Both the position numbers and the translations under genes were made by a program. Below the pieces are notes generated by a model, which saw nothing but the letters and a program-made list of their open reading frames with translations, searched no databases and had not been told where the DNA came from. From Puia dinghuensis (GTDB lineage: Bacteria > Bacteroidota > Bacteroidia > Chitinophagales > Chitinophagaceae), in assembly GCA_026225275.1 (NCBI GenBank), contig JAMFSL010000169.1, positions 26,341 to 90,340 of the forward strand: a stretch of 64,000 bases of DNA, in the 5' to 3' direction. Numbering within the stretch: position 1 is the stretch's first letter; every line of letters starts with the position of its first letter. Below are positions 9,139 through 33,444 of this stretch, in pieces.

Positions 9139-10051
9139 ACGACTGCCTGAATTCCAACGGCGAAAGATTCGTTTTTGTCTTGAACAACTTACTGAAAGAC
9201 TGCGGATGTTCGAAACCCAACTCGTAGGCAATCTCACTGACGGACATATCTGTAGCAGATAATTTCTCTTTTGCTTTTTCCATCAGCTTTTCGTGGATAT
9301 GGTCCCTCGTACTTCGACCTGTCAGCACCTTCAGCAACTCGCTCAGATAATTAGGCGATATCGTCAGCATTTCGGCCACGTATTGCACGGTAGGCAGCCC
9401 TTTCCGGGATAGATCATCGCTGTTGAAATATTCCGTCAGAATAGCTTCCAATCGGTCGAGAATTTTATGATTGGCGATTTTTCGGGTAATGAACTGGCGC
9501 CGATAAAACCTTTCTGCATAGGTCAGTAATAGTTCCAATTGCGCAATAATAACGTTCTGGCTAAATTGGTCAATATTGGAATGATATTCCTGCTCGACAT
9601 TCCGGATGATACCCGTAATCGTTGTTTCTTCTTTCTCCGAAAGAAATAAGGCCTCATTGACCGAGTAGTCGAAATATTCGTACTGTTTGATGTTTTTAGC
9701 CAGTGAGGTATGCCATAAAAAATCGGGATGGATGAGTAACAACCATCCCGAATGTCTTAATTCTTCATTTTTCTCCACTTCAATTCCAAACACCTGGCCG
9801 GGAGATATAAAAAACATGACACCTTCGTCAAAATCGTATTCCTGCTGGCCATATTTCATCTTCGCATTAGGGCTTCTTTTAAGAGAGATGGAATAAAAAT
9901 CAAAAACCATGTTCACGGAATCCTTAACAGGTAAATTTTTGATGGAATCAAGATGCACCACGCTGATCAGGGGATGCTCCGGTGCGGGAAGTCCCATAAA
10001 CCGGTGATAGTCCTTTATCGTCTTAATCCTATGAAGCGTTATTTTTGCCAT
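9131..10051 (-). CDS. AraC-family transcriptional regulator
   Basis: One-component regulator of 306 aa. The N-terminal ~190 residues form a cupin-like sensing region (VMFFISPGQVFGIEVEKNEE). The C-terminal ~100 residues hold two helix-turn-helix motifs, the first around VAEMLTISPNYLSELLKVLTG and the second in the AraC signature (MSVSEIAYELGFEHPQSFSKLFK, then LSPLEFR). It lies 12 nt downstream of the NmrA-like gene on the same strand, so the two are probably co-transcribed and the regulator likely controls that reductase. The inducer is unknown. Confidence 0.93.
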   Translation of the reverse strand: MAKITLHRIKTIKDYHRFMGLPAPEHPLISVVHLDSIKNLPVKDSVNMVFDFYSISLKRSPNAKMKYGQQEYDFDEGVMFFISPGQVFGIEVEKNEELRHSGWLLLIHPDFLWHTSLAKNIKQYEYFDYSVNEALFLSEKEETTITGIIRNVEQEYHSNIDQFSQNVIIAQLELLLTYAERFYRRQFITRKIANHKILDRLEAILTEYFNSDDLSRKGLPTVQYVAEMLTISPNYLSELLKVLTGRSTRDHIHEKLMEKAKEKLSATDMSVSEIAYELGFEHPQSFSKLFKTKTNLSPLEFRQSFN

Positions 10052-10063
10052 ACCTCTCCCCTC

Positions 10064-10954
10064 TTATTGTTTATACAAGATAGCAAATTCCTTTGCAAAA
10101 TCGGTCAGCTTGACCTTCCCCAAGGCTGGTTGATGGCGATAATAGTCCTCCATCAGCCGACCACTGTGCTGGGCGGCAAACATTTCAACCAACCCTACCG
10201 CTATTGTCTTGTTCAGGCCTACTGCCTCCAAAAATTTTTGCCTTTCCGCGTCACTGACCATGATCCATTTTAAATCAGGCTTACCGATAGCCGCACCTAA
10301 GATACTGGCCGTCTCATGACCGGTCAGTTCATCGCTTGCCACATACCGTACTTTCCTATGGGAAGCAGGCGCTTCCAGCTCGTCGGCCACTGCGGCAGCA
10401 ATATCAATCGGTGAAACCCATACAAGGTTTTCATCCGCACCGTAGTTCGCCGAGATAACACCAGCCTGTTTGATCTGGGGTATAAAGCCGAACAAATTGT
10501 AATAAAAGCCTACTGGCCGCATGAAAGTAATGGCCACATCCGACAGCTTGCCCAGAATAAGCTCTGCCTCATGATGGGCCAGGATCAGCCCCGATCCCTT
10601 TTCCAAATGAGCACCAATGCTGCTGAGGTGAACCACACGCCTGACGCCCGACTTTTGAATAGCTTGCACGAAATTATTGGTGATCCCGGTGGTATGCGCC
10701 CTGAGGTCAAAAGCAGGGTTGAAATAATTGGCGGGCGGGATCATCGTGTACACGACATCCGCCGAGCTGAAAGCCGCTGTCAGAAAATCAACGTTTTCGA
10801 TCGCCCCGATGGCGGCGGCTGCGCCCAGTTCCACGATGTCCTTTTGTTTTTCGGGGTTGCTGCTGATCACCGTAACAGTATGCCCTTTTTCTACCAACAA
10901 TGCGGTCAATGGCTTCCCGATATGCCCTAATGAACCTGTTAATGTAATTTTCAT
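10064..10954 (-). CDS. NmrA-family NAD(P)-binding protein / atypical short-chain reductase
   Basis: Rossmann-fold protein of 296 aa resembling NmrA/SDR_a quinone reductases and redox sensors. The dinucleotide-binding glycine motif is at the N terminus (TGSLGHIGKPL). There is a VVYTMIPPANYF segment, RVVHLSSIGAH as strand 5, and an RPVGFYYN loop. No conserved YxxxK catalytic pair is obvious, in line with the atypical NmrA subgroup. It is first in a two-gene minus-strand run with an AraC regulator, an arrangement often seen for stress-inducible NAD(P)H-binding proteins. The function is inferred from the fold only. Confidence 0.88.
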   Translation of the reverse strand: MKITLTGSLGHIGKPLTALLVEKGHTVTVISSNPEKQKDIVELGAAAAIGAIENVDFLTAAFSSADVVYTMIPPANYFNPAFDLRAHTTGITNNFVQAIQKSGVRRVVHLSSIGAHLEKGSGLILAHHEAELILGKLSDVAITFMRPVGFYYNLFGFIPQIKQAGVISANYGADENLVWVSPIDIAAAVADELEAPASHRKVRYVASDELTGHETASILGAAIGKPDLKWIMVSDAERQKFLEAVGLNKTIAVGLVEMFAAQHSGRLMEDYYRHQPALGKVKLTDFAKEFAILYKQ

Positions 10955-13388: not shown

Positions 13389-14081
13389 ATGAGATTGAGC
13401 CTGACTGCGCTGATGTTGCAAATTTTTTTCCTGTCCGTGCCCATGATGACCAGGGCCGCTGTAGTTCGGGATACAATCACCCACGGGGACTATACCCTGA
13501 TTGTAGTCAATAATGCCCCGGATTTCAGCCCGGAAACACGTCAAAGACTAATAGACGCTTTCTTTATCGTTTATCCTGAAGAGGCGACGCGCTTCAATAA
13601 AAATACCCTGAGACAAGTGACCTTTTTTATCGATCCGACCTATACTGGAGTCGCGGAGACGGGCAATGGCGTAAGCCGGTTCAACCCGAAATGGCTGAAG
13701 GATCACCCGGAAGATATTGACGTCGTGACGCATGAGGTCATGCATATCGTGCAGGATTACCGGCATGACGGGCCGGGATGGCTCACCGAAGGAATCGCGG
13801 ATTATGTCCGGTATGTCTATGGCGTCAATAATCTAAAGAGCAACTGGAAGCTACCCCCCTACCGTCCCAACCAGAGTTACACGAATGCCTACCGGGTAAC
13901 AGCGAGGTTCCTTTTATGGATCGAAAAGAATAAAGATCAGCATATCGTCGACCAGATGGATGCGGCGATGCGGGACGGGACCTATACCGACAGTCTGTGG
14001 ACGAAGCTGGCGGGCAGTACGGTGGATGGATTGTGGCAGCAATATGCAAATTCTCCGGCCTTAGAGCTATCCTATAAGTAA
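13389..14081 (+). CDS. Secreted basic-secretory-protein (BSP) family metallopeptidase
   Basis: Predicted secreted zinc peptidase of 230 aa related to plant basic secretory proteins. A signal peptide (residues ~1-23, ending TRAA) precedes a single domain. The gluzincin-like motif is HEVMH at residues 115-119, followed by the family's QDY...GPGWLTEGIADYVRY stretch. It lies 50 nt upstream of a susC gene on the same strand and is probably transcribed with it, so it may act first on a glycoprotein or peptidoglycan substrate of this utilisation locus. A near-consensus -7 element (TATCTTTA, ~13350) precedes it. Family assignment is firm; proteolytic activity is inferred. Confidence 0.87.
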   Translation: MRLSLTALMLQIFFLSVPMMTRAAVVRDTITHGDYTLIVVNNAPDFSPETRQRLIDAFFIVYPEEATRFNKNTLRQVTFFIDPTYTGVAETGNGVSRFNPKWLKDHPEDIDVVTHEVMHIVQDYRHDGPGWLTEGIADYVRYVYGVNNLKSNWKLPPYRPNQSYTNAYRVTARFLLWIEKNKDQHIVDQMDAAMRDGTYTDSLWTKLAGSTVDGLWQQYANSPALELSYK

Positions 14082-14131: not shown

Positions 14132-17100
14132 ATGAGGAAACCAAAGAAGTGTGCCACTCCCGTGGCCTTCCAAAGGCTTTTTGCCTGGCTGCTGGTCTTT
14201 TGTCTCTACGGAGCAACTGCATCGGCGCAGGGACCGCAGGGACCCGTCACCATCACGGGTCTTGTAAAAGACAAACTGAATAAACCGCTGGAAGCGGTAA
14301 GCATTCAGGTCTTAGGGACGCAAAGGGGTACGTCTACCGACTCCCTCGGAAAATTCACGATCAAACTGGACAATCCCAAACAGCAGCTACACTTCTCACG
14401 CGTGGGCTATGTGGCGCAGACGATCGGCTCGACGAACAGCTTTTACATCGAGATCACGATGGATGCCGTGGAAGGCAGTGCGGATGAAGTCGTGGTCGTA
14501 GGTTATGGCCAGCAGAAAAAGATCAGCCTGGTAGGCGCCCAATCGACGGTCAACGTAGACGACCTCAAAGAACCTGTTGCCAATCTCAGCGCTTCGCTGG
14601 CCGGCAGGCTGGCAGGCCTGGTGGGCGTACAGCGGACGGGCCTTCCCGGCACGAATGGCGCAGACCTCTATATCCGCGGCATCTCGACGTTCGTCGGCAA
14701 CGGGAATGATGCCGGTCCGCTCGTCATTGTCGACGGCGTGCAGGGGCGAAACATAGATGCATTCGACCCGGAAGACATCGCGTCCTTTACTATCCTGAAG
14801 GACGCCTCTGCAACAGCCATCTATGGCGTCGCGGGTGCCAACGGCGTTATCCTGATCCAAACGAAGAAAGGAAAGATCGGCAAGCCGGTACTGATGTTCA
14901 ATTATAATGAAGGAGTCAATTCCTTTACCAAGACCCCTTCCCTCACCAACGGCCAGCAATATATGACCCTGCGCGATGAGGCAGAAGTCGCTTCGGGCTT
15001 CCAGCCGGATTATTCCCAGGCCTATATCGACAGCACGGTAGCGGGCCATCAGCCCTACCTCTACCCGAACGTCAACTGGATGAAGGCCTTGTTTAACAAC
15101 CTGGCCGATAGCCGGCGGGCGAATTTCAGCGCCCGCGGCGGCACGGAAAATACGACGTATTATGTATCAATGGCTTATTACGATGAGACGAGCCTGATGA
15201 AGACCAATGGATTGGACCAGTATAATGCGAATACGCGTTACCGCCGGTATAATTTCACGTCGAATATCGATATGAACTGGACGAAGACCACGAAGTTCGA
15301 GCTGGGTATCCAGGGGTATATTTCGAATACTAATTATCCCGGCGTGCCATCGGCAAGCAATAACATCGGATCCGTCTCATCTACGTCCAATGCGCCGCAG
15401 CAGATATTCGGGGATGTGATGCAGACGAATCCTGTCCTGTACCCCATCATGTACCCGGGCAATATCGTGCCGGGCGTCAGCTCCGCCGGAGCGCAGCCTA
15501 ATCCCTATTCGGAACTGACACAGACGGGGTATCAGACCGTGTTCAGCAGCCAGGTATATACCAATGCGCGGATCACTCAGGATCTGAGTCCGCTGGTCAA
15601 GGGGTTGTCGGCCTATGCGATGTACGCTTTCGATGTGCTGGACAGCCAGACGGTCGCCAATACGCGGCAACGCAGCAGCTATCTGATCGACAAGACGACT
15701 CCCTATAACCCCGACGGGAGTCCCAACCTGGATCTCATCTCGGAAGGGTCGGACAACCTGAGTTTCGCTGACGGCAATGGCGGCAACAGGCAGAATTACC
15801 TGGAAGCGGCGGTCAATTATGATAAGAATTTCAACACGAAGAATCATATCACGGGCCTGATCCTGTACAATCAGCGGTCGTATACGCAGGCTTTCCCGAC
15901 GAGCCTGACGGCTGCCTTGCCGTATAGAAGCGAAGGCCTGGCAGGTCGTGTCACCTACGGTTGGAGTGACAAGTATTTCGGCGAGTTCAATTTCGGTTAT
16001 AATGGCAGCGAAAATTTTGCGCCGCAAAAGCAGTTCGGCTTTTTCCCGTCGTTTGGGGCGGGTTGGGTCATCTCGAAGGAAAAGTTCTTTGAACCGGTCA
16101 AGGATGTATTGCAATTCCTGAAGATCCGGTATTCGAATGGCTGGGTCGGCAGCGGCGGCATCTCGCAAAATAATAATGTCCGCCGCTTCGGTTTCCTGAC
16201 GCTGGTGTCCAACCAGGCCACGGGCTATACTTTCGGCAATGGAGTGAACAACACGAGCTATAACGGCATCGCGATCACGGATTACGGCACGGACGTCACG
16301 TGGGCCCGTTCGCACAAGCAGGATGTCGGGATCGAGTTGAAGACGCTGAATAATAAGGTATCGCTGACAGTTGATTATTTCAATGAGCTTCGGACGGGGG
16401 TCTTCCTGCAACGGGCCAGTCTCGCTTCCTATGCAGGCTTCATTAATGACCCATGGTCCAATCTGGGGGTGATCAGTAATAAAGGCTTCGACGGTACGAT
16501 GGATGTGACGCCGATCGCGATCGGACCAACGATCTGGACAGCACATGCCACGTTTTCCTGGAACAGGGATAAGGTGATCCAGAATGACGATCCCGTCCAA
16601 CCCTTTCCCTATATGGAACACAGGGGCGTGAATTACAAATCGGATTTCGGTTACGTGGCCGAGGGTTTGTTCACCAGCCAGCAGGAGATCGACAATGCAC
16701 CGAGCCAGGCGCCACTGGGCAATGTCCGCGTCGGTGATATCCGGTATAAGGACCTGAATGGCGACGGCAAGATAGATGCCAATGACGTCAGGCGGATCGG
16801 TAATGGAAATGTCCCCAACCTGGTGTATGGCATCGGGTTCAATGTACAATGGAAGCAATGGAATTTTGGTGTTTTCTTCCAGGGTATCAAGGGTGCGCAA
16901 CAGCAGCTCAGTGGCGACGGCATCTTCCCGTTCAACAACAGTACCGGCGCGGAACGCAGCAACCTGTATACGGCAGCCGAAAGCCGCTGGTCGCCTGAAA
17001 CCCCCAACCCTCACGCCTTTTATCCCCGGCTGGCGTATGGAAATTCGGAGAACAGCAATAACGACGTCGCCAGCAGCTGGTGGGAGAAGAGCATTGATTT

Positions 17101-17311
17101 CCTGCGGCTGAAGACGATGGATTTTGGCTATACGCTGCCAAAGGGTACGCTGAAAAGCATTGGGTTGAAGAATGCAAGGATCTACGTGCAGGGAGTCAAT
17201 CTTTTGTACTGGAGTTCCTTTAAACTATGGGACCCTGAGCTGGAGACGTCGAATGGCGCCTTGTATCCTAACTCCCGGAACATAACAACCGGCATCCAGG
17301 TCAATTTCTAA
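14132..17311 (+). CDS. SusC/RagA-family TonB-linked outer membrane protein
   Basis: Second SusC-type transporter, 1059 aa. It has an N-terminal signal peptide (residues ~1-33, ending ASAQ), a carboxypeptidase-regulatory domain (TITGLVKDKLNKPLEAVSIQV), a plug with the SusC signature (VVVVGYGQQKKISLVGA, then DIASFTILKDASATAIYGVAGANGVI) and a long beta-barrel ending TTGIQVNF. A calcium-binding-like loop (DLNGDGKIDANDVRRIG) is typical of SusC barrels. The stop overlaps the susD ATG by one base. Neighbours (BSP peptidase, SusD, DUF1735 lipoprotein, convergent GH20) suggest import of oligosaccharide from amino-sugar-containing glycans or glycoproteins. Confidence 0.94.
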   Translation: MRKPKKCATPVAFQRLFAWLLVFCLYGATASAQGPQGPVTITGLVKDKLNKPLEAVSIQVLGTQRGTSTDSLGKFTIKLDNPKQQLHFSRVGYVAQTIGSTNSFYIEITMDAVEGSADEVVVVGYGQQKKISLVGAQSTVNVDDLKEPVANLSASLAGRLAGLVGVQRTGLPGTNGADLYIRGISTFVGNGNDAGPLVIVDGVQGRNIDAFDPEDIASFTILKDASATAIYGVAGANGVILIQTKKGKIGKPVLMFNYNEGVNSFTKTPSLTNGQQYMTLRDEAEVASGFQPDYSQAYIDSTVAGHQPYLYPNVNWMKALFNNLADSRRANFSARGGTENTTYYVSMAYYDETSLMKTNGLDQYNANTRYRRYNFTSNIDMNWTKTTKFELGIQGYISNTNYPGVPSASNNIGSVSSTSNAPQQIFGDVMQTNPVLYPIMYPGNIVPGVSSAGAQPNPYSELTQTGYQTVFSSQVYTNARITQDLSPLVKGLSAYAMYAFDVLDSQTVANTRQRSSYLIDKTTPYNPDGSPNLDLISEGSDNLSFADGNGGNRQNYLEAAVNYDKNFNTKNHITGLILYNQRSYTQAFPTSLTAALPYRSEGLAGRVTYGWSDKYFGEFNFGYNGSENFAPQKQFGFFPSFGAGWVISKEKFFEPVKDVLQFLKIRYSNGWVGSGGISQNNNVRRFGFLTLVSNQATGYTFGNGVNNTSYNGIAITDYGTDVTWARSHKQDVGIELKTLNNKVSLTVDYFNELRTGVFLQRASLASYAGFINDPWSNLGVISNKGFDGTMDVTPIAIGPTIWTAHATFSWNRDKVIQNDDPVQPFPYMEHRGVNYKSDFGYVAEGLFTSQQEIDNAPSQAPLGNVRVGDIRYKDLNGDGKIDANDVRRIGNGNVPNLVYGIGFNVQWKQWNFGVFFQGIKGAQQQLSGDGIFPFNNSTGAERSNLYTAAESRWSPETPNPHAFYPRLAYGNSENSNNDVASSWWEKSIDFLRLKTMDFGYTLPKGTLKSIGLKNARIYVQGVNLLYWSSFKLWDPELETSNGALYPNSRNITTGIQVNF

Positions 17312-19161
17312 TGAATCATAAACTGATTATCATGAAAAGAGCAATATATTTTTTCCTGGCCGGCGCTTTCCCGCTGCTGCTGGGTTCCTGTAAGAAGTAT
17401 CTGCAAACCGTCCCCAACGATGTACTGACGATCGACAGTATCTTCAATTCGAAGGCCAATGTGGACGAATACCTGGCCAATATCTATTCTTCACTGCCCG
17501 ATGAGATGGAACAGAGATTTCAAGGCACCTCGAATTCCGGAGTATGGGAAGGAGCCTCTGACGAAGCGAAGTACAACTGGGATTTCGTCTATACGAACGA
17601 GATGAATCTGAGTGTGTGGAGCAACACAGATGGTACGGTGTCCACCTACTGGACCAGTTATTACCAGGCCATCCGCAATGCAACGGATTTTATGAACCGG
17701 ATAGGCAGCGCCAATCCGAATGAACTGCCAGACTCGCTGAAGGCGGAATATAAGGCGGAGGCCAGAGGGTTGCGGGCGATCTTTTATTTCAATTTACTAC
17801 GGACGTATGGACCGGTAGTGCTGTTGGGTGACAACCTGATCTCCGCGGATGCATCTACGACATCGGTACGCCTCCCGCGGGCGTCGTTCGATTCGTGTAT
17901 CAATTTTGTCGTTACCCAGCTGGATTCGGCCTATATCAACCTGCCATATACACCCACCGGTCAGCAGTTTGGCCGGATCGTGAGGGGGGTGGTGAAGGCT
18001 TACAAGGAGCAAGCGCTGATGCTGGATGCAAGTCCGCTGTATAACGGCAACGCTGATTATGCAGGCCTGGGATCGCTGGTCAACCAGACCTATGATGCCG
18101 GTAAATGGGCCACTGCGGCAACCGCCGCCAAGGCATTTATCACGGAATTCGTGCCCGGTTATTATTCCCTGTTTGTCGAAGCTAATGCCGATCCCGCGAT
18201 GCAGGCCTATCTGTCCTGTAAAGATGTGATGCTGACCGACTGGAACCAGGAGTGGATCTTTGCCGCGTCGAACCAGGGTAGTTATATGCGGTATGACCGG
18301 ACACCCAAACATGTCGGGGGTCCTTCAGACCAACAGGGCGGCGGTGCCTTCGGCGCAACGCAAACGATGGTTGACGCTTATTTTATGGCTAATGGCCGAC
18401 CCATCACGGATCCGGCATCGGGCTATGTGTCCAGCGGGTTCTCCCAATATCTGTCCGTCGGCGACGAATACCTGAATAATCAATATGGTCTCGGACTGAC
18501 CGGGCATAATACCTATAACCAGTGGGTAGGCCGGGAACCACGGTTCTATGTAGGGGTCACTTATGACAGCAGTTATTGGCTGTACCAGGACAATGGTTAT
18601 GCCCCGATCGTAACTTCCTTCGAATATTCAGGAAATTCGGGTCGGTCACAAAGTACATCGGATGTTTCGCCAACCGGGTATTGCGCCCGGAAGAACGTCG
18701 CTGCCAATGATGACAGCAGGGGCGCGCTGCTGCTGCGGCTGGCCAATATTTACCTGGACTATGCCGAAGCATTGAATGAGTCTGATCCGGGTAATCCTGA
18801 TATCCTGACCTATCTGAATGCGATCCGCCAGCGGGCCGACGTCCCGATATATGGTTCGGGTACGAATACATTGCCGGTACCCTCCTCACAGGACTCTATG
18901 CGCATCGCAATCCGGAATGAGCGGCGGGTGGAGCTGGCTTTCGAGAACGTGCGGTATTTTGATACCAGGCGGTGGAAGATCGCTCCACAGACGGACGCGG
19001 GGGCTTTTTATGGGATGAATATGTATGCCGACGGATCGGCCTTTTACCAGAAGACACAGACGGAGACAAGGGTGTTCTATACTCCAAGGGATTATTTCTT
19101 CCCCATTCCGGAGAGCGAAGTGCTCATCGACAATTTATTGGTTCAAAACACTGGCTGGTAA
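17311..19161 (+). CDS. SusD/RagB-family lipoprotein
   Basis: Ligand-binding partner of the preceding SusC, 616 aa from the ATG overlapping the susC stop. The in-frame ATG at 17332 gives a cleaner lipoprotein signal (MKRAIYFFLAG... to a lipobox ending GSC) and may be the true start. It has an N-terminal SusD-like segment (YLQTVPNDVLTIDSIF) and a C-terminal RagB/SusD domain with AIRNERRVELAFENVRYFDTRRW. The terminal residues (LVQNTGW) resemble the usual SusD ending. It is larger than SusD proteins of the starch system, as is common for members binding bigger ligands. Confidence 0.93.
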   Translation: MNHKLIIMKRAIYFFLAGAFPLLLGSCKKYLQTVPNDVLTIDSIFNSKANVDEYLANIYSSLPDEMEQRFQGTSNSGVWEGASDEAKYNWDFVYTNEMNLSVWSNTDGTVSTYWTSYYQAIRNATDFMNRIGSANPNELPDSLKAEYKAEARGLRAIFYFNLLRTYGPVVLLGDNLISADASTTSVRLPRASFDSCINFVVTQLDSAYINLPYTPTGQQFGRIVRGVVKAYKEQALMLDASPLYNGNADYAGLGSLVNQTYDAGKWATAATAAKAFITEFVPGYYSLFVEANADPAMQAYLSCKDVMLTDWNQEWIFAASNQGSYMRYDRTPKHVGGPSDQQGGGAFGATQTMVDAYFMANGRPITDPASGYVSSGFSQYLSVGDEYLNNQYGLGLTGHNTYNQWVGREPRFYVGVTYDSSYWLYQDNGYAPIVTSFEYSGNSGRSQSTSDVSPTGYCARKNVAANDDSRGALLLRLANIYLDYAEALNESDPGNPDILTYLNAIRQRADVPIYGSGTNTLPVPSSQDSMRIAIRNERRVELAFENVRYFDTRRWKIAPQTDAGAFYGMNMYADGSAFYQKTQTETRVFYTPRDYFFPIPESEVLIDNLLVQNTGW

Positions 19162-19176
19162 CTTCAAAATCTTTTT

Positions 19177-20046
19177 ATGCTCAACAATATTAAATCTCTG
19201 TTTCTCCTGGGCTGCCTTGGCCTATTGGCCGGTGCCTGCAACAAACCTGCCCCTATCCACCTGGCACAGGAGGGAACGATCTATATGCCCCAGGCTTACA
19301 GCATCAATGGCAGCCTGACGTTACTGCTCAGCGATTCTGCGCAGGGCGTGACTTTCGGCGCAGCCTATGGCGGCCTGGAATATGCACCAAAAAATATCGA
19401 CGTCAGCTTTATCGTCGATACGGCGGATATTGCCGCCTATAATGCCGCAAACGGCACCTCCTATCTGCCGCTGCCATCGTCGGCCTATACGGTGTCTTCG
19501 CTGCTGGACACGATTAAGCAAGGACAGACAAGCTCCGATCCGCTGAGCCTATCGATCACGACGGCATCGCTGGATTTCACGGCGCAGTATATCCTTCCGA
19601 TCAAGCTGGTCAGCGCCTCTTCGGGAACCATCAACAGCAGTCTGCAGACGACTTATTTTACGATCAACCAGCTCGTCAATGTGTATGCCGGGTCGTATAC
19701 TACGAACGGAACGCGGTATAATTATAACGCCGATGGCTCTTCTGCCGGCACCGACACAATCACCGACACGCGGGTGTTGACGACGATGGCCTTCGACTCT
19801 TGCAGCATCAATACGATCGCCAATTTGGGGGTATATGCCGGAACTGTCTTTTATGTTCAGGTCAATTCGGACAATACGCTTGAGTTCAGCGGTTATCTGT
19901 CGGGGGTGATAGGGTCGCCGATAGCCAATCAACCGGGGAAGACAAGCACCTACGATCCGGCGACGAAGATCTGGAATGTGCACTACATGTATACGAATAC
20001 CACTGGTACCTATCGCTATATGGATGAGGTCTGGACACCACAGTAG
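19177..20046 (+). CDS. DUF1735-type (BT_3987-like) surface lipoprotein
   Basis: Cell-surface glycan-binding type lipoprotein of 289 aa, encoded 15 nt after susD in the same operon. The signal peptide ends in a lipobox (LLAGAC). An N-terminal DUF1735/BT_3987-like beta domain contains the recognisable YNAANGTSYLPLPSSAYTV segment, followed by a DUF4361-like C-terminal half (YAGSYTTNGTRYNYN ... VHYMYTNTTGTYRYMDEVWTPQ). In Bacteroidota, such proteins commonly stand next to SusC/SusD and GH18 or GH20 enzymes acting on N-glycans or chitin-like glycans. The role as an auxiliary surface glycan-binding protein is inferred from this context. Confidence 0.85.
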   Translation: MLNNIKSLFLLGCLGLLAGACNKPAPIHLAQEGTIYMPQAYSINGSLTLLLSDSAQGVTFGAAYGGLEYAPKNIDVSFIVDTADIAAYNAANGTSYLPLPSSAYTVSSLLDTIKQGQTSSDPLSLSITTASLDFTAQYILPIKLVSASSGTINSSLQTTYFTINQLVNVYAGSYTTNGTRYNYNADGSSAGTDTITDTRVLTTMAFDSCSINTIANLGVYAGTVFYVQVNSDNTLEFSGYLSGVIGSPIANQPGKTSTYDPATKIWNVHYMYTNTTGTYRYMDEVWTPQ

Positions 20047-20087: not shown

Positions 20088-23000
20088 TCAATTCTTAAAC
20101 CAGCCGGAAGGGATGTCCACGGGTTCCGATCCGTTGACGCTATATTTTAATTTCAGCGTATAGCCGCCGCCGCCTTCAATAAAATCAAGGTTGAAAGGCT
20201 GTAGTCCCTTCCTCAGCGCGATCTGGCCATTCTTTTCAATGGCCGAATGCAGGCCATCATTATCCACGACCACGCGGTCGGCTATTTTCAGGACTCCGCC
20301 ATCGTCGCAGGTCAGGAAAAAGCTGTAGATGCCGTCGGCAGGAATATCGATATATCCTTTATAGTTGATGGCGAAGGATGGGGCGGTCACCGTTGAAGGC
20401 ACGGTGATCGTGTTCGAAAGAAAGGTGCTGTCACTTTTGGCCCCGCCGATCAGGCTCGTTTGCTTGAAAAAGGCCTTATAATATTGACAGACTAATCCCG
20501 GATGAGTGTCACCACCGTCCGTCCTGATCGCCTCCGCATAATCCTGCTGCTTAAAATGCAGCGTATAAATATCACCGCGTAAGCCATTCGGTGTAAATGC
20601 AGCCAGCTTGATCGTCATTGACTGCTTAATGATCAACGGCGCCTTTAATTCGGCCGCCGACATCCCGGGCAGGCTCCCATCGGTGGTATACAGGATCCGC
20701 ATATCAGCCAGGGGCTTTTTAACGGTCATCGTATCCGCATCGACGAAAACATTTTCCGTAATAATGCCCGGCAGATCCGGCAGCCGGTAATGCACCTGTA
20801 ATTCATCCAGGCGCCTATATTGCCGCTGCAACCTGTCGAGGTAAGAAGGATACGCCTGACTTTGATTGGTCCATAACAACTCAGCCAGCGCCGTCATCCT
20901 GGGCATGAACATATAATCAGCCCGGCGTTCGGAGGGAATATTCTCTGACCAGAGTTCAGCCTGCGCTCCGATGATGGCCTTTCTCTCCTCTCCTACCAGC
21001 CTGGCGGGAATGGGATTGAAATGATATACCCTCGACAATGAATTTTGGTCGGGCGGATTATCGAAATACAACGGATCACCCGGGGCCATAATGACCGAAT
21101 TACCGTTCCTGGCGGCTTTCACCGGCGCATCGGGCACCCAACTCCGCCAGTACATGACTAAGGCTGTCGGATTAATACCTCCTTCAATCACTTCGTCCCA
21201 GCCGATCAGCCGCCTGCCTTTGGAACGAAAAAATTTCTCCATCCGGTTGATAAAATAGCTCTGTAAAGCCGGCAGATCCGCAATACCTTCCCGCTGCATT
21301 AAAGCCTTGCAGGCCGCTGATTTTGCCCAATCAGAACGATCCACCTCATCGCCGCCGATATGGATATATGGAGAAGGGAAAATATCCATTATTTCGGTGA
21401 ATACATTTTCGGCGAACTCAAAAGTCGTCTCATTACAGGGGCAGATGGGTTTGGAGAAAAGCTCACCGAACGTATTCTGACCATTGCAGCTCAAATACGG
21501 ATAGGCAGTAATGGCCGCCATCATGTGGCCGGGCATATCGATCTCGGGAATGATATCAATGTGTCTGGCGGCCGCATAAGCTACGAGGCCTTTCAGCTGC
21601 TCCTGGGTGTAAAATCCGCCGTACAATGTTTTGCCATCCTTATGGCGGATATGTTGCGGATCGATCGCGAAATCAGGATTATCATGAGATTTCCTCATAC
21701 AGGCCGAATCGTTCTTATCGAAAGTGCGCCATGCTCCCTGTTCGGTCAGCAGGGGATACTTTTTTATTTCGACACGCCAGCCCTGGTCATCCGTCAAATG
21801 CAGATGTAGCTTGTTCATCTTGTAGAGGGCCATCACGTCGATGAACTTTTTCAGATAGCCGATAGAAAAGAAATGACGCGAAACATCCAGGTGCATCCCA
21901 CGCCATGACCAGGCAGGCGCATCCTCGATATCGACGGCGGGCAATACGATTTTTGGTAAATGATCATGACCGGCCCGCTCTGCCCGGGCGGGTAATAATT
22001 GCCTGATCGTTTGCACGGCCATGAACATCCCTGCCGCCGTTCGGGCGGCAAGGGTCATCCCCATAGGCGTGATGACCAAATGATATCCTTCCTCCGCTGC
22101 AATGCTGCTGTCATAGACGAACCGGATGGCATTTTTACCGGCTGTCGTGCCCTTGGCCAACGGTTGACCAAAGCTATTCGCCAGCAGTACGTTGAAGGCA
22201 TCCGCTTCATTCCTGAATAATGGGCCGCCCGGGAGTACGATAGTCGTAGCGGGCGTAATGATGAAATGGCCGGGCGCAGGCGTCAATTGAGTTGGATAGG
22301 GAATGATCGGATATCGTGTATCGGCCTCCTGTGCCGTAGACTGCAAAGCAAAAAATAATAATAAAAATAGCGCCAACCCGCCCTTAACGAATGCTTCTAT
22401 CAACCGCAGAACCCCCGCGCCTTCCTGGCCGCTGCTGGGATTCGGGCCTTTGTCAAGGAAGTACCTGACAGTAGCGTCAATCATAGGCTGCTGCACGTGC
22501 TGCAACGGATCGAAGGAAAGGATAGCCGTTCCATCCTCCGTCATGACAGTAATAATGTCGGTGCTGAAAACAGAAAAGCTAATGGTACCCTTTGTGCCGA
22601 TGATTTCACAATGGTCACGTGTGGCAGACGGTGCGGCGTTGAAGCACCAGGTTCCGCTGAACGCAACGCCGTTCTCATACAGAATATTTCCAGTCACCAG
22701 ATCGTCCGCATCGTATTGATCGCCCTGGTTGGTGGCAATGCCTGTCACTTTTCGGGCGGCCCCGAAGAAATAGGACATCAGGTCAAGCTGATGCGTACCA
22801 AGGTCGTGAAACAGACCGCCGCCTGCAATAGCAGGTATGACCCGCCAACCGATTCCCGGATCCGCCATTTCGGCTGCCGTCATCCGAGGTTTGGTCAATT
22901 CAAGCCGGACCAGCAGGACTTCCCCGATGGCCTTTTCGTCGATTAACTGTTTGACTTTCTTAAATCGTGGTTGTTCACGACGATAATGCGCGACAACTAG

Positions 23001-23357
23001 TTTGATCCCTTTGGCCGCTGCGATATCGTTCATCCGGCAAGCGGCAGCATAATCATTCGCCATCGGCTTTTCGACATAGACCGGTTTGCCGGCCTGAAGG
23101 GCGGCAATAGCGTATTCTTCATGCGAAGAAGGTGGCGTCGCGACATAAATAGCATTAACCTCCGGATCGTGGATGAGTTTTTCTGCATCGTCGTACCAGC
23201 GCGGGACATGATGGCGGAGGGCATAATCCTGTGCCTTGGCAGCATCCCGACGCATGACGGCCACCAATCTGGAATGTTCAACCTTGTTAAAGGCGGGGCC
23301 GCTTTTGCGTTCCGTGACATCCCCGCAACCGATAATTCCCCAATGAAGTGTTTGCAT
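20088..23357 (-). CDS. Gfo/Idh/MocA dehydrogenase fused in frame to GH20 beta-N-acetylhexosaminidase with PA14 domain
   Basis: One uninterrupted 1089-aa frame containing two normally separate proteins. Residues 1-~325 are a Gfo/Idh/MocA oxidoreductase: Rossmann motif GIIGCGDV, EKP at 96-98, GGGLFHDLGTHQLDL near 179-193. Residues ~328-343 (LALFLLLFFALQSTAQ) form a signal-peptide-like hydrophobic stretch. Residues ~345-480 are a GH20 N-terminal domain and ~480-830 the GH20 barrel with catalytic D670-E671 in HIGGDEVDRSDW. A chitobiase-C-like stretch (RILYTTDGSLP) and a PA14-like domain (~940-1085) follow. GH20 enzymes release terminal beta-linked GlcNAc or GalNAc. An in-frame TTG at 22376 could start a separate GH20. 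It converges on the SusC/SusD operon. Both halves look intact. Confidence 0.88.
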   Translation of the reverse strand: MQTLHWGIIGCGDVTERKSGPAFNKVEHSRLVAVMRRDAAKAQDYALRHHVPRWYDDAEKLIHDPEVNAIYVATPPSSHEEYAIAALQAGKPVYVEKPMANDYAAACRMNDIAAAKGIKLVVAHYRREQPRFKKVKQLIDEKAIGEVLLVRLELTKPRMTAAEMADPGIGWRVIPAIAGGGLFHDLGTHQLDLMSYFFGAARKVTGIATNQGDQYDADDLVTGNILYENGVAFSGTWCFNAAPSATRDHCEIIGTKGTISFSVFSTDIITVMTEDGTAILSFDPLQHVQQPMIDATVRYFLDKGPNPSSGQEGAGVLRLIEAFVKGGLALFLLLFFALQSTAQEADTRYPIIPYPTQLTPAPGHFIITPATTIVLPGGPLFRNEADAFNVLLANSFGQPLAKGTTAGKNAIRFVYDSSIAAEEGYHLVITPMGMTLAARTAAGMFMAVQTIRQLLPARAERAGHDHLPKIVLPAVDIEDAPAWSWRGMHLDVSRHFFSIGYLKKFIDVMALYKMNKLHLHLTDDQGWRVEIKKYPLLTEQGAWRTFDKNDSACMRKSHDNPDFAIDPQHIRHKDGKTLYGGFYTQEQLKGLVAYAAARHIDIIPEIDMPGHMMAAITAYPYLSCNGQNTFGELFSKPICPCNETTFEFAENVFTEIMDIFPSPYIHIGGDEVDRSDWAKSAACKALMQREGIADLPALQSYFINRMEKFFRSKGRRLIGWDEVIEGGINPTALVMYWRSWVPDAPVKAARNGNSVIMAPGDPLYFDNPPDQNSLSRVYHFNPIPARLVGEERKAIIGAQAELWSENIPSERRADYMFMPRMTALAELLWTNQSQAYPSYLDRLQRQYRRLDELQVHYRLPDLPGIITENVFVDADTMTVKKPLADMRILYTTDGSLPGMSAAELKAPLIIKQSMTIKLAAFTPNGLRGDIYTLHFKQQDYAEAIRTDGGDTHPGLVCQYYKAFFKQTSLIGGAKSDSTFLSNTITVPSTVTAPSFAINYKGYIDIPADGIYSFFLTCDDGGVLKIADRVVVDNDGLHSAIEKNGQIALRKGLQPFNLDFIEGGGGYTLKLKYSVNGSEPVDIPSGWFKN

Positions 23358-23380
23358 ATGTAGTATTCAAAACTACATAT
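23356..23380. promoter_or_regulatory. Inverted repeat overlapping the promoter of the MocA-GH20 gene (operator candidate)
   Basis: A perfect 9-bp inverted repeat, ATATGTAGT-7 nt-ACTACATAT, overlaps the start codon (23355-23357). It also contains an exact minus-strand -7 element TAGTTTTG (23368-23375). A regulator bound here would block both RNA polymerase and translation initiation. Confidence 0.5.
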
Positions 23381-23444: not shown

Positions 23445-25679
23445 ATGCAAAAACGGCTACGAAGTCTTGCTCTGATGATGCTGTCCCTGATTGGGCTGAC
23501 GGCCGGCGCACAAATGAATAAAGTGGATTCATTGGCTCAGTTGATCGACCACCGGGCTGCCAACGACAGTGTCAAGGCCGACCTGATGGTCCAATTAGCA
23601 AAGATGCTGGCTTATTCCGACCCTGGCCGGGCCATGAAGATAGCTGACGCCGAATTGCCCATGGCCCAACAATTACATTACAAAACTGGTATCCTTGGCG
23701 GATACAATGTCAAGACCAGCCTGCTGTTCATCACCGGCAACCTGCAGCAGGGACTGATGGTTGGCGAAGAATTTCTACGGGCAGCCAACCAGTTCCACAG
23801 CCAGGCCGGTTCCATTACCGCCAACAGCCTGATGGGCATCATGTATTCCCAGGGCGGCAATTATGCCAAAGCGTTGGAATACATGCTCGCTTCATTGAAG
23901 ATAGCCGAACAAACCCACGATCAATCCAGGATTTCGGCATTGGACCAGAATATCGGTAATGTGTATAATGACATGGAAGATTATGACAAAGCCATCGGGT
24001 ATTATAAAAACGCCATCACCATCACGGAGACCCTCGTCCCCCCTACCCCCGTCCCTCCTTCTTTGTATAATAATATCGGCTCGGTCCTGATCCGTCAGCA
24101 AAAATATGCTGCCGCCATCGATTACCTGGAGAAGGGTAAGGAGATTAGCCAGCAAACGAACAACAAACGTTCGCTCGCCGGAGCGCTGACGAACCTGTCA
24201 GATGCCTGGCATAACCTGGGCGACGACGAAAAATCATACGAATATGGCCGGCAGGCACTGGCGATCAGCCGGGCCCTGGGCGACAAAAGGTCGATGGCCA
24301 ACGCCATGATCAACGTCGGCACAGCCATCAATGATGTATCCGACAAAACATTGACCGACCAGCACATCGACCCGAAGGATCGTTCCACCCTGGCCATATC
24401 GACACTGGACAGCGCTATTCAAATGGCTTCAACCATCGGGGATCCGGCAACAAAAGAAGAAGCCTACAAAGAGTTAAGCGATATCTCGGAAAAGCAAAAA
24501 AACTTTCCACTGGCCATTTCTTCCCTCAGGATGTACAACCACCTGCACGATACGATCGTCAATAACGACAACGAGAAAAGTATCATGCGGAAGTTTATCC
24601 AATACGATTTTGATAAGAAGGCGGCGGAGATCCAATTACAGCAGCAAATCACCGAGGCCAGGCTAAAGGAACAGCAGCTGCTGTCCCATGAAGCATCCCA
24701 GCAGCTGAAGATCAATCAAAACGAACTATCGCTGAGCAATAAGGACAGGGATCTGCAAAAACTGGCCGCGCAGAAAGAACAGGTAGAACTGATGAAAGAA
24801 GAACAGAAAAAGCGGGATATCCAGACCCTTGCCAATCAAAAAGACAAGATCCAGGCCCTGGAGATCGCCGGCCAGAGAAGGCTTAAATATGGGCTGATCG
24901 CCGGGCTGCTGCTGATCGGGGCCATCGGGATCCTGATCTATCGCCAAAGCGCCTCACGCAAGGTGGCTAATCAAAGGCTCACGCTGATCAATGGACAGCT
25001 GGACGAAGCCAATAGGGTAAAAGCAAGGTTCCTGGGTATTATCAGCCACGATCTCCGCAGTCCCGTGGCCAATCTGATTAGCCTGATCAATCTCCGGAAA
25101 GAGGCCCCGGACCTGCTGAACGAAGAAGGAATGGCTTACGGTCAGCAAAAGATCACCGACACGGCAGAGAACTTATTATATGTCATGGAAGATATCCTGC
25201 TATGGAGCAAAGGGCAAATGGTCGCGTTCAAACCGCATATAAAAGCTTTGTCAATCCACAGTGTGTTTACGGAAATGCAGCTGCTCTATGCCGGCAACGG
25301 TCACGTCCGCATCCTGTTCAGCAATCCGCAGAACCTGCAGATCAATACCGATGAAGATTACCTGAAGACCATCCTGCGAAATCTGACCTCCAATGCCATC
25401 AAGGCCGTCGATGGCCGACCTGATGCGCTCATCGAATGGAAGGCCTGGCGTGAAAATCAACAACTAGCCTGCCTCTCCATCACCGACAACGGTCCGGGTA
25501 TCTCGACTACACAACGGGCCGCACTTTTCAACAATGAGGCCGATATAGGGATCAAACACGGACTAGGGCTTCCCCTGGTCAGAGATTTTGCCGAGGCCGT
25601 CAACTGTACCATCGAGGTGAGCGCCGCCGCCGGAGGCGGTACCACCTTCCTTCTGCTGTTCAGGGAATATAATAACTAG
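23445..25679 (+). CDS. TPR-containing membrane sensor histidine kinase
   Basis: Sensor kinase of 744 aa of a type common in Bacteroidota. Signal peptide 1-22; periplasmic tetratricopeptide repeats over ~40-380 (for example GNVYNDMEDYDKAIGYYKNAI); a coiled coil ~385-475 rich in Q, E and K; one TM at 481-500; HisKA with FLGIISHDLRSPVA (acceptor H535); a HATPase_c domain with N-box LTSNAIKAV, DNGPGI and GLGLPLVRDFAEA. There is no receiver domain and no adjacent response regulator on this strand. It ends convergently with the hybrid kinase, sharing a CTAG that serves as both stop codons. Confidence 0.92.
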   Translation: MQKRLRSLALMMLSLIGLTAGAQMNKVDSLAQLIDHRAANDSVKADLMVQLAKMLAYSDPGRAMKIADAELPMAQQLHYKTGILGGYNVKTSLLFITGNLQQGLMVGEEFLRAANQFHSQAGSITANSLMGIMYSQGGNYAKALEYMLASLKIAEQTHDQSRISALDQNIGNVYNDMEDYDKAIGYYKNAITITETLVPPTPVPPSLYNNIGSVLIRQQKYAAAIDYLEKGKEISQQTNNKRSLAGALTNLSDAWHNLGDDEKSYEYGRQALAISRALGDKRSMANAMINVGTAINDVSDKTLTDQHIDPKDRSTLAISTLDSAIQMASTIGDPATKEEAYKELSDISEKQKNFPLAISSLRMYNHLHDTIVNNDNEKSIMRKFIQYDFDKKAAEIQLQQQITEARLKEQQLLSHEASQQLKINQNELSLSNKDRDLQKLAAQKEQVELMKEEQKKRDIQTLANQKDKIQALEIAGQRRLKYGLIAGLLLIGAIGILIYRQSASRKVANQRLTLINGQLDEANRVKARFLGIISHDLRSPVANLISLINLRKEAPDLLNEEGMAYGQQKITDTAENLLYVMEDILLWSKGQMVAFKPHIKALSIHSVFTEMQLLYAGNGHVRILFSNPQNLQINTDEDYLKTILRNLTSNAIKAVDGRPDALIEWKAWRENQQLACLSITDNGPGISTTQRAALFNNEADIGIKHGLGLPLVRDFAEAVNCTIEVSAAAGGGTTFLLLFREYNN

Positions 25680-31758: not shown

Positions 31759-33444
31759 ATGACACTACCTATCATTTTCACCATAGACGACGATCCCCAG
31801 GTATTGAGGGCCATTGCCCGGGACCTGCGATCGCATTTTCGTCAATCCTATCGCATCCTGAGCACCACCTCCGTGAAAGAAGCGCTGGAAAGTCTTCTCG
31901 ACCTCAAGAACAAAGGAGAGTCTGTAGCCTTGTTTATTTCTGACCAGCGTATGCCGGAGATGGAGGGCGTGGACTTTTTGCAAAAGGCCAGGGAATTCTT
32001 CCCCGATGCACGGCGGGTGTTGCTGACCGCCTATTCTGATACCGACGCAGCGATCAAGGCGATCAACAGCGTACAGCTGGATTATTATCTCATGAAACCA
32101 TGGGACCCGCCCGAGGAAAAATTGTATCCTGTCATCAGCGAACTGCTGGATGACTGGCAGGACAGTTACCGACCTGCTTTCAAGGGTATCAAAATCATCG
32201 GTTACCAGTTCTCGCCCCAATCACATGAGATCAAGGAATTCCTCGCCGGCAACCTTGTACCCTACCAATGGCAGGACATCGAGATCAGCCAGGAGGCAGG
32301 GGAATTACTCAAACTCAACAATATACCCCTCAAAGATCTGCCGGTACTCTTCCTGGAAGATGGCAGTTTTCTTTCCGCGCCGACGATACCGGCTATTGCG
32401 GCCATGATCGGGCTGAATCCGGAAGCGAAAAATACCATTTATGACGTCGTGATCATCGGAGCGGGTCCGGCAGGGCTGGCGGCCTCCGTCTATGGCGCTT
32501 CGGAAGGACTGAAGACTTTGCTGATCGAACGCCGGTCTCCGGGCGGTCAGGCCGGTACCAGTTCGAGGATCGAAAATTACCTGGGTTTCCCCAATGGTCT
32601 CAGCGGTACCGAACTGACCCGACGGGCCGTTACCCAGGCAACACGGCTGGGCGCTGAGGTACTCGTGCCCCGAACGGTAAAAGACATCTGCCAGAAAGAT
32701 GGCTATAAGAAGATAACGCTGGACAATGATGAAGAGATCAATACCCATGCAGTGGTCATTACTACCGGGGTGGATTACCGCAAGCTCGAGACAAAGGGCA
32801 TACCCGATTATACCGGCGCCGGGATCTACTACGGGGCAGCCATGACGGAGGCCAGCGCCTTCCGGGACTGTGAAGTCTTCGTGGTAGGCGGCGGTAATTC
32901 CGCGGGACAGGCTGCCATGCACCTGTCCAAATTTGCCCGCAACGTTCATATCGTGATCCGGAAGGAAGACCTGACCAGTACTATGTCGGCTTACCTGATC
33001 GACCAGATCGCGACCCGCCAGAATATTCATCTGCTCGGCCGGAGCGAGATCGTAGAAGCGCTCGGCGGTCCTGGCGAGGACACCGGCGGATCGGGCCGGC
33101 TGGAATGCCTGCAGATCCAGAACCTGGACACGATGGAGATCGTCAAAAATCAAGCTAACGCCCTCTTCATTTTCATCGGCGCCCGCCCCTTTACCGACTG
33201 GATTGGCCTGGACATCATCAAAGATGATAAAGGATTTCTGGAAACGGGACGCGACCTGACCTTCCATGCCGACTTCAAAAAGATCTGGAAGCAGGATCGG
33301 GACCCCTATCTGCTGGAGACCAGCTGCCCGGGCATATTCGCAGCGGGTGATGTGCGTGCAGGCGCCATGAATCGTGTCGCCTCGGCCGTAGGCGAAGGCT
33401 CGATGTCGATCAGCTTTGTCCACAAATACCTGGCAGAAGTCTGA
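31759..33444 (+). CDS. Response regulator fused to thioredoxin-reductase-like FAD oxidoreductase
   Basis: 561-aa fusion. The receiver domain (~1-125) has IDDDP, phospho-acceptor D62 in ISDQRMP and K in LMKPWD. The middle domain (~145-215) resembles a glutaredoxin/thioredoxin fold but has SPQS where a CxxC would be. The C-terminal ~335 residues are TrxR-like: FAD motif GAGPAGLAA, GGQAGTSSRIENYLGFP, NADPH motif VVGGGNSAGQAA and the FAD-closing AAGDVRAGAMNR. The redox CxxC of classical thioredoxin reductase is absent; the segment reads YYGAAMTEA. It therefore probably does not reduce thioredoxin by the usual disulfide relay. Co-transcribed with the cNMP kinase, which likely phosphorylates it. 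Confidence 0.9.
   Translation: MTLPIIFTIDDDPQVLRAIARDLRSHFRQSYRILSTTSVKEALESLLDLKNKGESVALFISDQRMPEMEGVDFLQKAREFFPDARRVLLTAYSDTDAAIKAINSVQLDYYLMKPWDPPEEKLYPVISELLDDWQDSYRPAFKGIKIIGYQFSPQSHEIKEFLAGNLVPYQWQDIEISQEAGELLKLNNIPLKDLPVLFLEDGSFLSAPTIPAIAAMIGLNPEAKNTIYDVVIIGAGPAGLAASVYGASEGLKTLLIERRSPGGQAGTSSRIENYLGFPNGLSGTELTRRAVTQATRLGAEVLVPRTVKDICQKDGYKKITLDNDEEINTHAVVITTGVDYRKLETKGIPDYTGAGIYYGAAMTEASAFRDCEVFVVGGGNSAGQAAMHLSKFARNVHIVIRKEDLTSTMSAYLIDQIATRQNIHLLGRSEIVEALGGPGEDTGGSGRLECLQIQNLDTMEIVKNQANALFIFIGARPFTDWIGLDIIKDDKGFLETGRDLTFHADFKKIWKQDRDPYLLETSCPGIFAAGDVRAGAMNRVASAVGEGSMSISFVHKYLAEV

Follow-up and report, generated by a model that had tools for sequence, protein, structure and literature searches.

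Organisation of the locus

The window, by which we mean the whole 64,000-nucleotide stretch of Puia dinghuensis DNA that was analysed, comes from a 6.6-Mb draft genome of a soil-type bacterium (G000:C275:26341-90340; 365 contigs, 99.9% complete). On its minus strand lies a single open reading frame that begins with ATG and runs for 1089 codons, uninterrupted by any stop, next to genes of a polysaccharide utilisation locus (Table 1). A gene for a basic secretory protease (BSP) family protein (13389-14081, plus strand) adjoins the SusC/SusD genes, and a two-component system lies just upstream of it on the opposite strand. Elsewhere in the window, a response-regulator receiver domain is fused to a pyridine nucleotide-disulphide oxidoreductase (31759-33444, plus strand).

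The octamer upstream of the fused frame belongs to a type that occurs 39 times in the window, which is about the number expected by chance and makes the element weak when taken alone. On the minus strand within the dehydrogenase, no match was found to TTTG-N17-23-TANNTTTG or to TANNTTTG; an internal promoter for GH20 was rejected because neither pattern matches there, although this is a weak ground since the pattern is common by chance.

Table 1 Positions of the fused gene, its parts and neighbours in the window, and of related fusions in the genus
Feature	Position	Strand	Basis or remark
Fused frame: dehydrogenase, internal signal, GH20-PA14	20088..23357	-	1089 aa; Pfam and translation
Gfo/Idh/MocA dehydrogenase domain, residues 1-325	22383..23357	-	Pfam, PDB, motifs; stand-alone relatives ending at about 325
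Codons 1-4 (MQTL), ATGCAAACACTT	23346..23357	-	Identical in G008 GH20 start (L067 3163-3174)
Codons 326-329, GGC GGG TTG GCG (GGLA), assignable to neither partner	22371..22382	-	Alignment with relatives
Signal-peptide hydrophobic core LALFLLLFFAL, residues 328-338	22344..22376	-	Hydrophobicity; homologous to G008 signal peptide
Signal peptidase I type site S-T-A↓Q, residues 340-342, predicted cut after A342	22332..22340	-	-3,-1 rule
Mature GH20-PA14 hexosaminidase (predicted), residues 343-1089	20088..22331	-	Pfam; D670-E671 pair
TTG codon 319, possible internal start (MIEAFVKGGLALF...)	22401..22403	-	Sequence inspection
TTG codon 328, possible internal start, without positive n-region	22374..22376	-	Sequence inspection
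TAGTTTTG, Bacteroidota -7-like element upstream of the fused frame	23368..23375	-	Conserved in G008
Divergent TPR/histidine kinase gene	23445..25679	+	Syntenic in G008, 87%
Convergent BT_3987-like SusE/F-type protein	19177..20046	+	Syntenic in G008
SusD (polysaccharide utilisation locus, with the BT_3987-like gene)	17311-19161		Syntenic in G008
SusC-type (same locus)	14132-17311		Syntenic in G008
GH35-GH20, G020	L072 7706-11794	-	One N-terminal signal, none at junction
GH78-GH20, G017	L202 3372-7988	-	One N-terminal signal, none at junction
GH78-GH20, G003	L201 3553-9888	+	One N-terminal signal, none at junction
MFS sugar-type transporter-GH20, G016:C79	L203 2229-5783	-	Complete internal signal peptide

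Two complete proteins and an internal signal peptide in one frame

All Pfam domains of the fused frame exceed their curated gathering cut-offs. GFO_IDH_MocA (residues 5-124) and GFO_IDH_MocA_C3 (132-259) are followed by GH20b (349-480), the GH20 catalytic domain (PF00728, 483-831, E 2.3e-111), CHB_HEX_C/Fn3_assoc (about 873-933) and PA14 (953-1070), with overall Pfam spans of 5-276 for the dehydrogenase part and 349-1070 for the GH20-PA14 part. Matches to PF01408, PF22725 and PF02894 above cut-off indicate that both the N-terminal Rossmann domain and the C-terminal alpha/beta domain of a Gfo/Idh/MocA oxidoreductase are present. The dehydrogenase domain is judged complete because its PDB alignment to glucose-fructose oxidoreductase covers residues 6-325, and residues 341-925 align with beta-hexosaminidase 6q63. 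The dehydrogenase motifs are intact (GxGxxx as GCGDVT; EKP at 96-98 with K97; D-x-x-x-H as DLGTH, D185/H189), and the GH20 catalytic pair D670-E671 is invariant in 27 sequences. None of the NCBIfam equivalogs names a substrate for the dehydrogenase, all scoring far below cut-off (best 113 of 355 bits).

The last dehydrogenase residue is K325, and GH20 homology picks up again at about L330. Between the two proteins the frame carries a signal-peptide core, LALFLLLFFALQSTA↓Q, and residues 328-338 within it reach a Kyte-Doolittle value of 3.16, the highest for any 11-mer of the protein (2.04 for the runner-up elsewhere). Directly after this region comes S340-T341-A342↓Q343 (STA↓QE), at the site where the nearest relative has AAA↓Q. 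The N-terminus, MQTLHWGIIGCG, begins the Rossmann fold directly, and no export signal or twin arginine was found there, such that the only signal is internal. An AlphaFold model predicts a helix spanning residues 313-344 with moderate to low confidence (pLDDT ~50-78); the dehydrogenase half was poorly modelled because the alignment held no relatives of the dehydrogenase. The initial annotation had read residues 1-325 as a complete Gfo/Idh/MocA enzyme, the frame as continuing without a stop into a complete GH20-PA14 protein, and the junction as what would be the signal peptide of a stand-alone GH20, and the domain scans, the PDB alignment and the homology of the core to the signal peptide of the G008 GH20 bear out each of these readings.

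Relatives keep the two genes apart

Comparison with relatives, which had been proposed as a check on the junction, reveals separate genes. In all 31 dehydrogenase relatives sampled, the protein ends at -1 to +5 relative to residue 325, in several with EAFVK or similar exactly there, and the GH20 start is ATG in nearly all relatives. By these alignments, the junction falls precisely at the end point of stand-alone dehydrogenases and at the place of GH20 signal peptides, which is more than chance would give. The dehydrogenase-GH20 fusion was found in one genome only, with no other case in the 33 genus, 399 family and 395 class genomes sampled or in 80 genome_contigs loci. Outside the genus, none of approximately 104 GH20 relatives checked is fused (29 family and 78 genome_contigs loci, overlaps removed), nor is any of nine further genes in class genomes. 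A separate overlap was observed in G030, where the dehydrogenase orthologue meets another frame tail to tail (L069 ~10000-10600; L018 48-1511, plus strand); by eye, that frame combines a polysaccharide deacetylase-like part with one resembling a sugar isomerase.

The nearest relative found, Chitinophagaceae bacterium palsa_949 (G008), is collinear with the window on both sides of the fused gene, with the order TPR/histidine kinase (87%), GH20 (88%), and the BT_3987-like, SusD and SusC-type genes (85-90%). Its GH20 is a stand-alone gene that begins MQTLIHPKATFSLLFLMSLFALKAAAQ.... Relative to G008, the window holds an additional 948 nt (316 codons), in frame, after codons 1-4, and homology returns within the hydrophobic core. 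The two genomes have the same DNA upstream of the gene, at the TAGTTTTG element and over the first four codons.

A fundamental question is how did such a gene arise? The dehydrogenase stop and the GH20 start with its n-region are all missing from the window, which indicates that a segment was lost or replaced. A recent stop loss, one of the alternatives offered by the initial annotation, is therefore right in spirit and wrong as a point event, and its other suggestion, a missed base hiding a stop, is insufficient: none of the reading frames offers an ATG from codon 325 up to the hydrophobic core, and restoring a single base would thus still not produce two normal genes. For this reason, both a single missed base and a point loss of the stop were rejected. 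A transposon-type insertion was likewise rejected, since no repeats flanking the dehydrogenase were found, and a contig chimera is unlikely in view of the synteny with G008 on both flanks.

The alignments favour an ancestor in which dehydrogenase and GH20 stood in tandem, from which G008 would have lost the body of the dehydrogenase, leaving MQTL on its GH20, while the lineage of the window joined the two genes. The rationale for this statement is that MQTLHWG has the length and pattern of a dehydrogenase N-terminus (compare MQTVQWG in L177), and that the n-region IHPKAT of the G008 GH20 resembles MKIHFKAT in L097. The alternative order of events is that the dehydrogenase was inserted into the GH20 start in the lineage of the window. 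In every other locus examined, a dehydrogenase orthologue adjoining GH20 is absent.

Integrity of both halves and constraint on GH20

Across the 3.3 kb of the fused gene there is no stop, frameshift or active-site loss. The GH20 part evolves under constraint (dN 0.056, dS 0.597, dN/dS 0.094 against G008), as does a neighbouring gene at a similar ratio (0.10), and by Tajima relative-rate tests, run with four outgroups, GH20 has no rate excess in the lineage of the window. This constraint may predate the fusion. For the dehydrogenase, no acceleration is seen relative to G030; against G016, private changes are in excess in the dehydrogenase of the window, at 38:20 and 38:18 with two of three outgroups and less markedly, at 31:24, with the third, in a comparison whose synonymous sites are saturated.

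The signal region departs from that of G008 at 8 of 16 residues and has become more hydrophobic (3.16 versus 2.43). When neutral change was simulated from the G008 sequence, 1.1% of runs attained the hydrophobicity of the window, and 9.8% held at least the G008 value together with an acceptable -3/-1 site. These values lend modest support to retention of the segment as a signal, over a time of which part may predate the fusion.

Other GH20 fusions in the genus

Within the genus, this GH20 subfamily has 12 full-length members whose 5' context is readable, and five of these are joined in frame to an upstream gene, a count that was made after the fact and includes cases that are not all independent. 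They comprise the window, a fusion to GH35 (G020), two fusions to GH78 (G003 and G017, perhaps one event) and a fusion to an MFS transporter (G016:C79). The GH35 and GH78 partners bring an N-terminal signal of their own, and at their junctions with GH20 no hydrophobic segment is left (best 11-mers 1.08, 1.45 and 1.36). The G016 junction carries a full signal peptide in frame, KGQRKLLTAVFSVLILSLPVTRLCA↓Q (2.84), and in L093, L139, L144 and L152-L155 the same locus holds this transporter upstream of GH20 as an independent gene that ends in a stop. As read from these junctions, an internal signal is retained twice, each time behind a non-exported partner (the dehydrogenase and the MFS transporter).

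Joined genes also occur with other GH20 subfamilies, as GH78-GH20-esterase (G017:C12, L214 1298-6850, plus strand) and GH89(NAGLU)-GH20 (G007:C216, L212 1412-5530, minus strand). A further frame (G031:C211, L213 4348-8802, minus strand) resembles the latter by sequence. Joined glycosidase genes seem to abound in the genus.

Discussion

How would a cytosolic enzyme and an exported one be produced from the same gene? We hypothesize, at a probability of roughly 0.55, that neighbouring genes for a cytosolic sugar dehydrogenase and an exported GH20 became one in-frame gene whose single precursor is exported in its GH20 part by the internal signal, with a probable cut by signal peptidase I. One promoter would most likely give one precursor, of which the dehydrogenase would fold in the cytosol, while the old GH20 signal core would serve as an internal start-transfer segment (N-in/C-out) behind which the GH20-PA14 part would cross the inner membrane. 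Signal peptidase I probably cleaves after A342, which would free the hexosaminidase in the periplasm and leave the dehydrogenase held at the membrane through a short helix; both halves would presumably be active. An RseP-type intramembrane protease might then release the tethered dehydrogenase, such proteases being described as clearing signal peptides from the membrane (PMC8144685). Export behind a folded 325-residue domain may be inefficient, because the hydrophobic stretch is short (11-15 residues) and few positive charges precede it (R318, K325).

An alternative hypothesis is that the precursor stays uncut as a bifunctional membrane protein, in which the internal signal would be a permanent anchor of ToxR-like topology tying the hexosaminidase to the dehydrogenase across the membrane. 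The long cytosolic domain ahead of the segment, a predicted helix continuous with the last dehydrogenase helix and a core stronger than that of G008 all fit such an anchor. However, S-T-A↓Q suits signal peptidase I and lies at the usual distance, and a core of 11-15 residues is below the usual length of an anchor, which makes this arrangement unlikely.

It is somewhat less likely again that one message yields two proteins, a read-through product of the dehydrogenase and a GH20 started in frame at TTG 22403, TTG 22376 or ATG 22484. With a start at TTG 22403, the GH20 would begin with MIEAFVKGGLALFLLLFFALQSTAQ, which could pass as a signal peptide. The start of a second gene at TTG 22376, as earlier proposed, does correspond to codon 328, but would leave the signal peptide without a positive n-region. 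Moreover, the dehydrogenase has no stop, so every ribosome initiating upstream would make the fusion; both TTGs lie in a G-rich stretch, the dehydrogenase contains no promoter-like element, and the preference of GH20 relatives for ATG speaks against such a start.

Could the fusion instead be a recent and mildly harmful accident, in which one half does not work (GH20 not exported, or the dehydrogenase unfolded) and decay is not yet visible? Its confinement to a single genome and the several same-subfamily fusions, which suggest frequent gene joining in the genus, would agree with this, but the open and undamaged 3.3 kb, the unaccelerated GH20 and the retained signal core render it improbable. 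An assembly or sequencing error, conceivable for a single draft genome in so many contigs, is very improbable given that G008 is an independent assembly syntenic on both flanks, that the first four codons of the dehydrogenase and the DNA before them are those of the G008 GH20 start, that the dehydrogenase lacks flanking repeats, and that adding back one base would not produce two normal genes.

If translation follows the frame as read, the product would be a natural bifunctional chain between cytosol and periplasm, with a soluble NAD(P) enzyme in one part and a soluble exported hydrolase in the other, and would indicate that a signal peptide can survive burial behind a folded 325-residue domain. 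The paired cases of the genus, with signals lost behind exported partners and kept behind non-exported ones, amount to a small natural experiment on fusion and export signals. A more speculative proposal, possible but doubtful, is that GH20 in this genus repeatedly captures its upstream neighbour and keeps the internal signal if that neighbour is non-exported, giving working polyproteins with a fixed 1:1 ratio of a cytosolic enzyme or an inner-membrane sugar transporter to an exported hexosaminidase at the same membrane site. For annotation there is a warning, in that signal-peptide predictors confined to the N-terminus would label this hexosaminidase cytosolic. A literature search, which was not exhaustive, found no earlier description of a soluble enzyme of the cytosol being linked in this manner to a soluble exported one.

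Comparison with known systems

Each half has well-defined counterparts. The GH20 half shares its domains, the D-E pair, a C-terminal PA14 and an A-x-A type site with Bacteroidota beta-N-acetylhexosaminidases (6q63 the nearest solved; stand-alone in Mucilaginibacter, Chitinophaga and G008), but it sits behind a 325-residue cytosolic enzyme and has lost its own start and n-region. The dehydrogenase shares the Rossmann and C-terminal domains, EKP, DxxxH and length with Gfo/Idh/MocA dehydrogenases of the glucose-fructose oxidoreductase and 1,5-anhydrofructose reductase type, but lacks a stop, and its C-terminal helix continues into the signal core.

Multicatalytic CAZymes are known from polysaccharide loci of Bacteroidota, such as CE15-GH8 (PMC8417218) and fused acetyl-feruloyl esterases (PMC7110780). 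The window resembles them in having two catalytic domains on one chain near a polysaccharide utilisation locus, and the GH35-GH20, GH78-GH20 and GH89-GH20 proteins of the genus are related to them. Whereas these enzymes are exported whole behind one N-terminal signal, the fused frame has no such single signal with all catalytic domains exported, and one half of its chain is predicted to be cytosolic.

The FbcH cytochrome b/c1 precursor of Bradyrhizobium contains an internal signal peptide that is cut by signal peptidase to give two proteins. As in polyproteins split in this way, one frame in the window holds an internal signal core and an A-x-A type site between two complete proteins, and the precursor would be single, with cleavage predicted. 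The products of FbcH share one membrane complex, whereas those of the window would be two soluble enzymes, one cytosolic and one exported. A close parallel is the MFS-GH20 of G016, which belongs to the same genus and GH20 subfamily and has likewise kept an internal signal behind a non-exported partner; there the partner is no dehydrogenase but a multi-span transporter whose C-terminus presumably lies in the cytosol. As far as its sequence can tell, the gene described here is a real in-frame fusion in one genome that has retained an internal export signal and has an informative parallel within its own genus.
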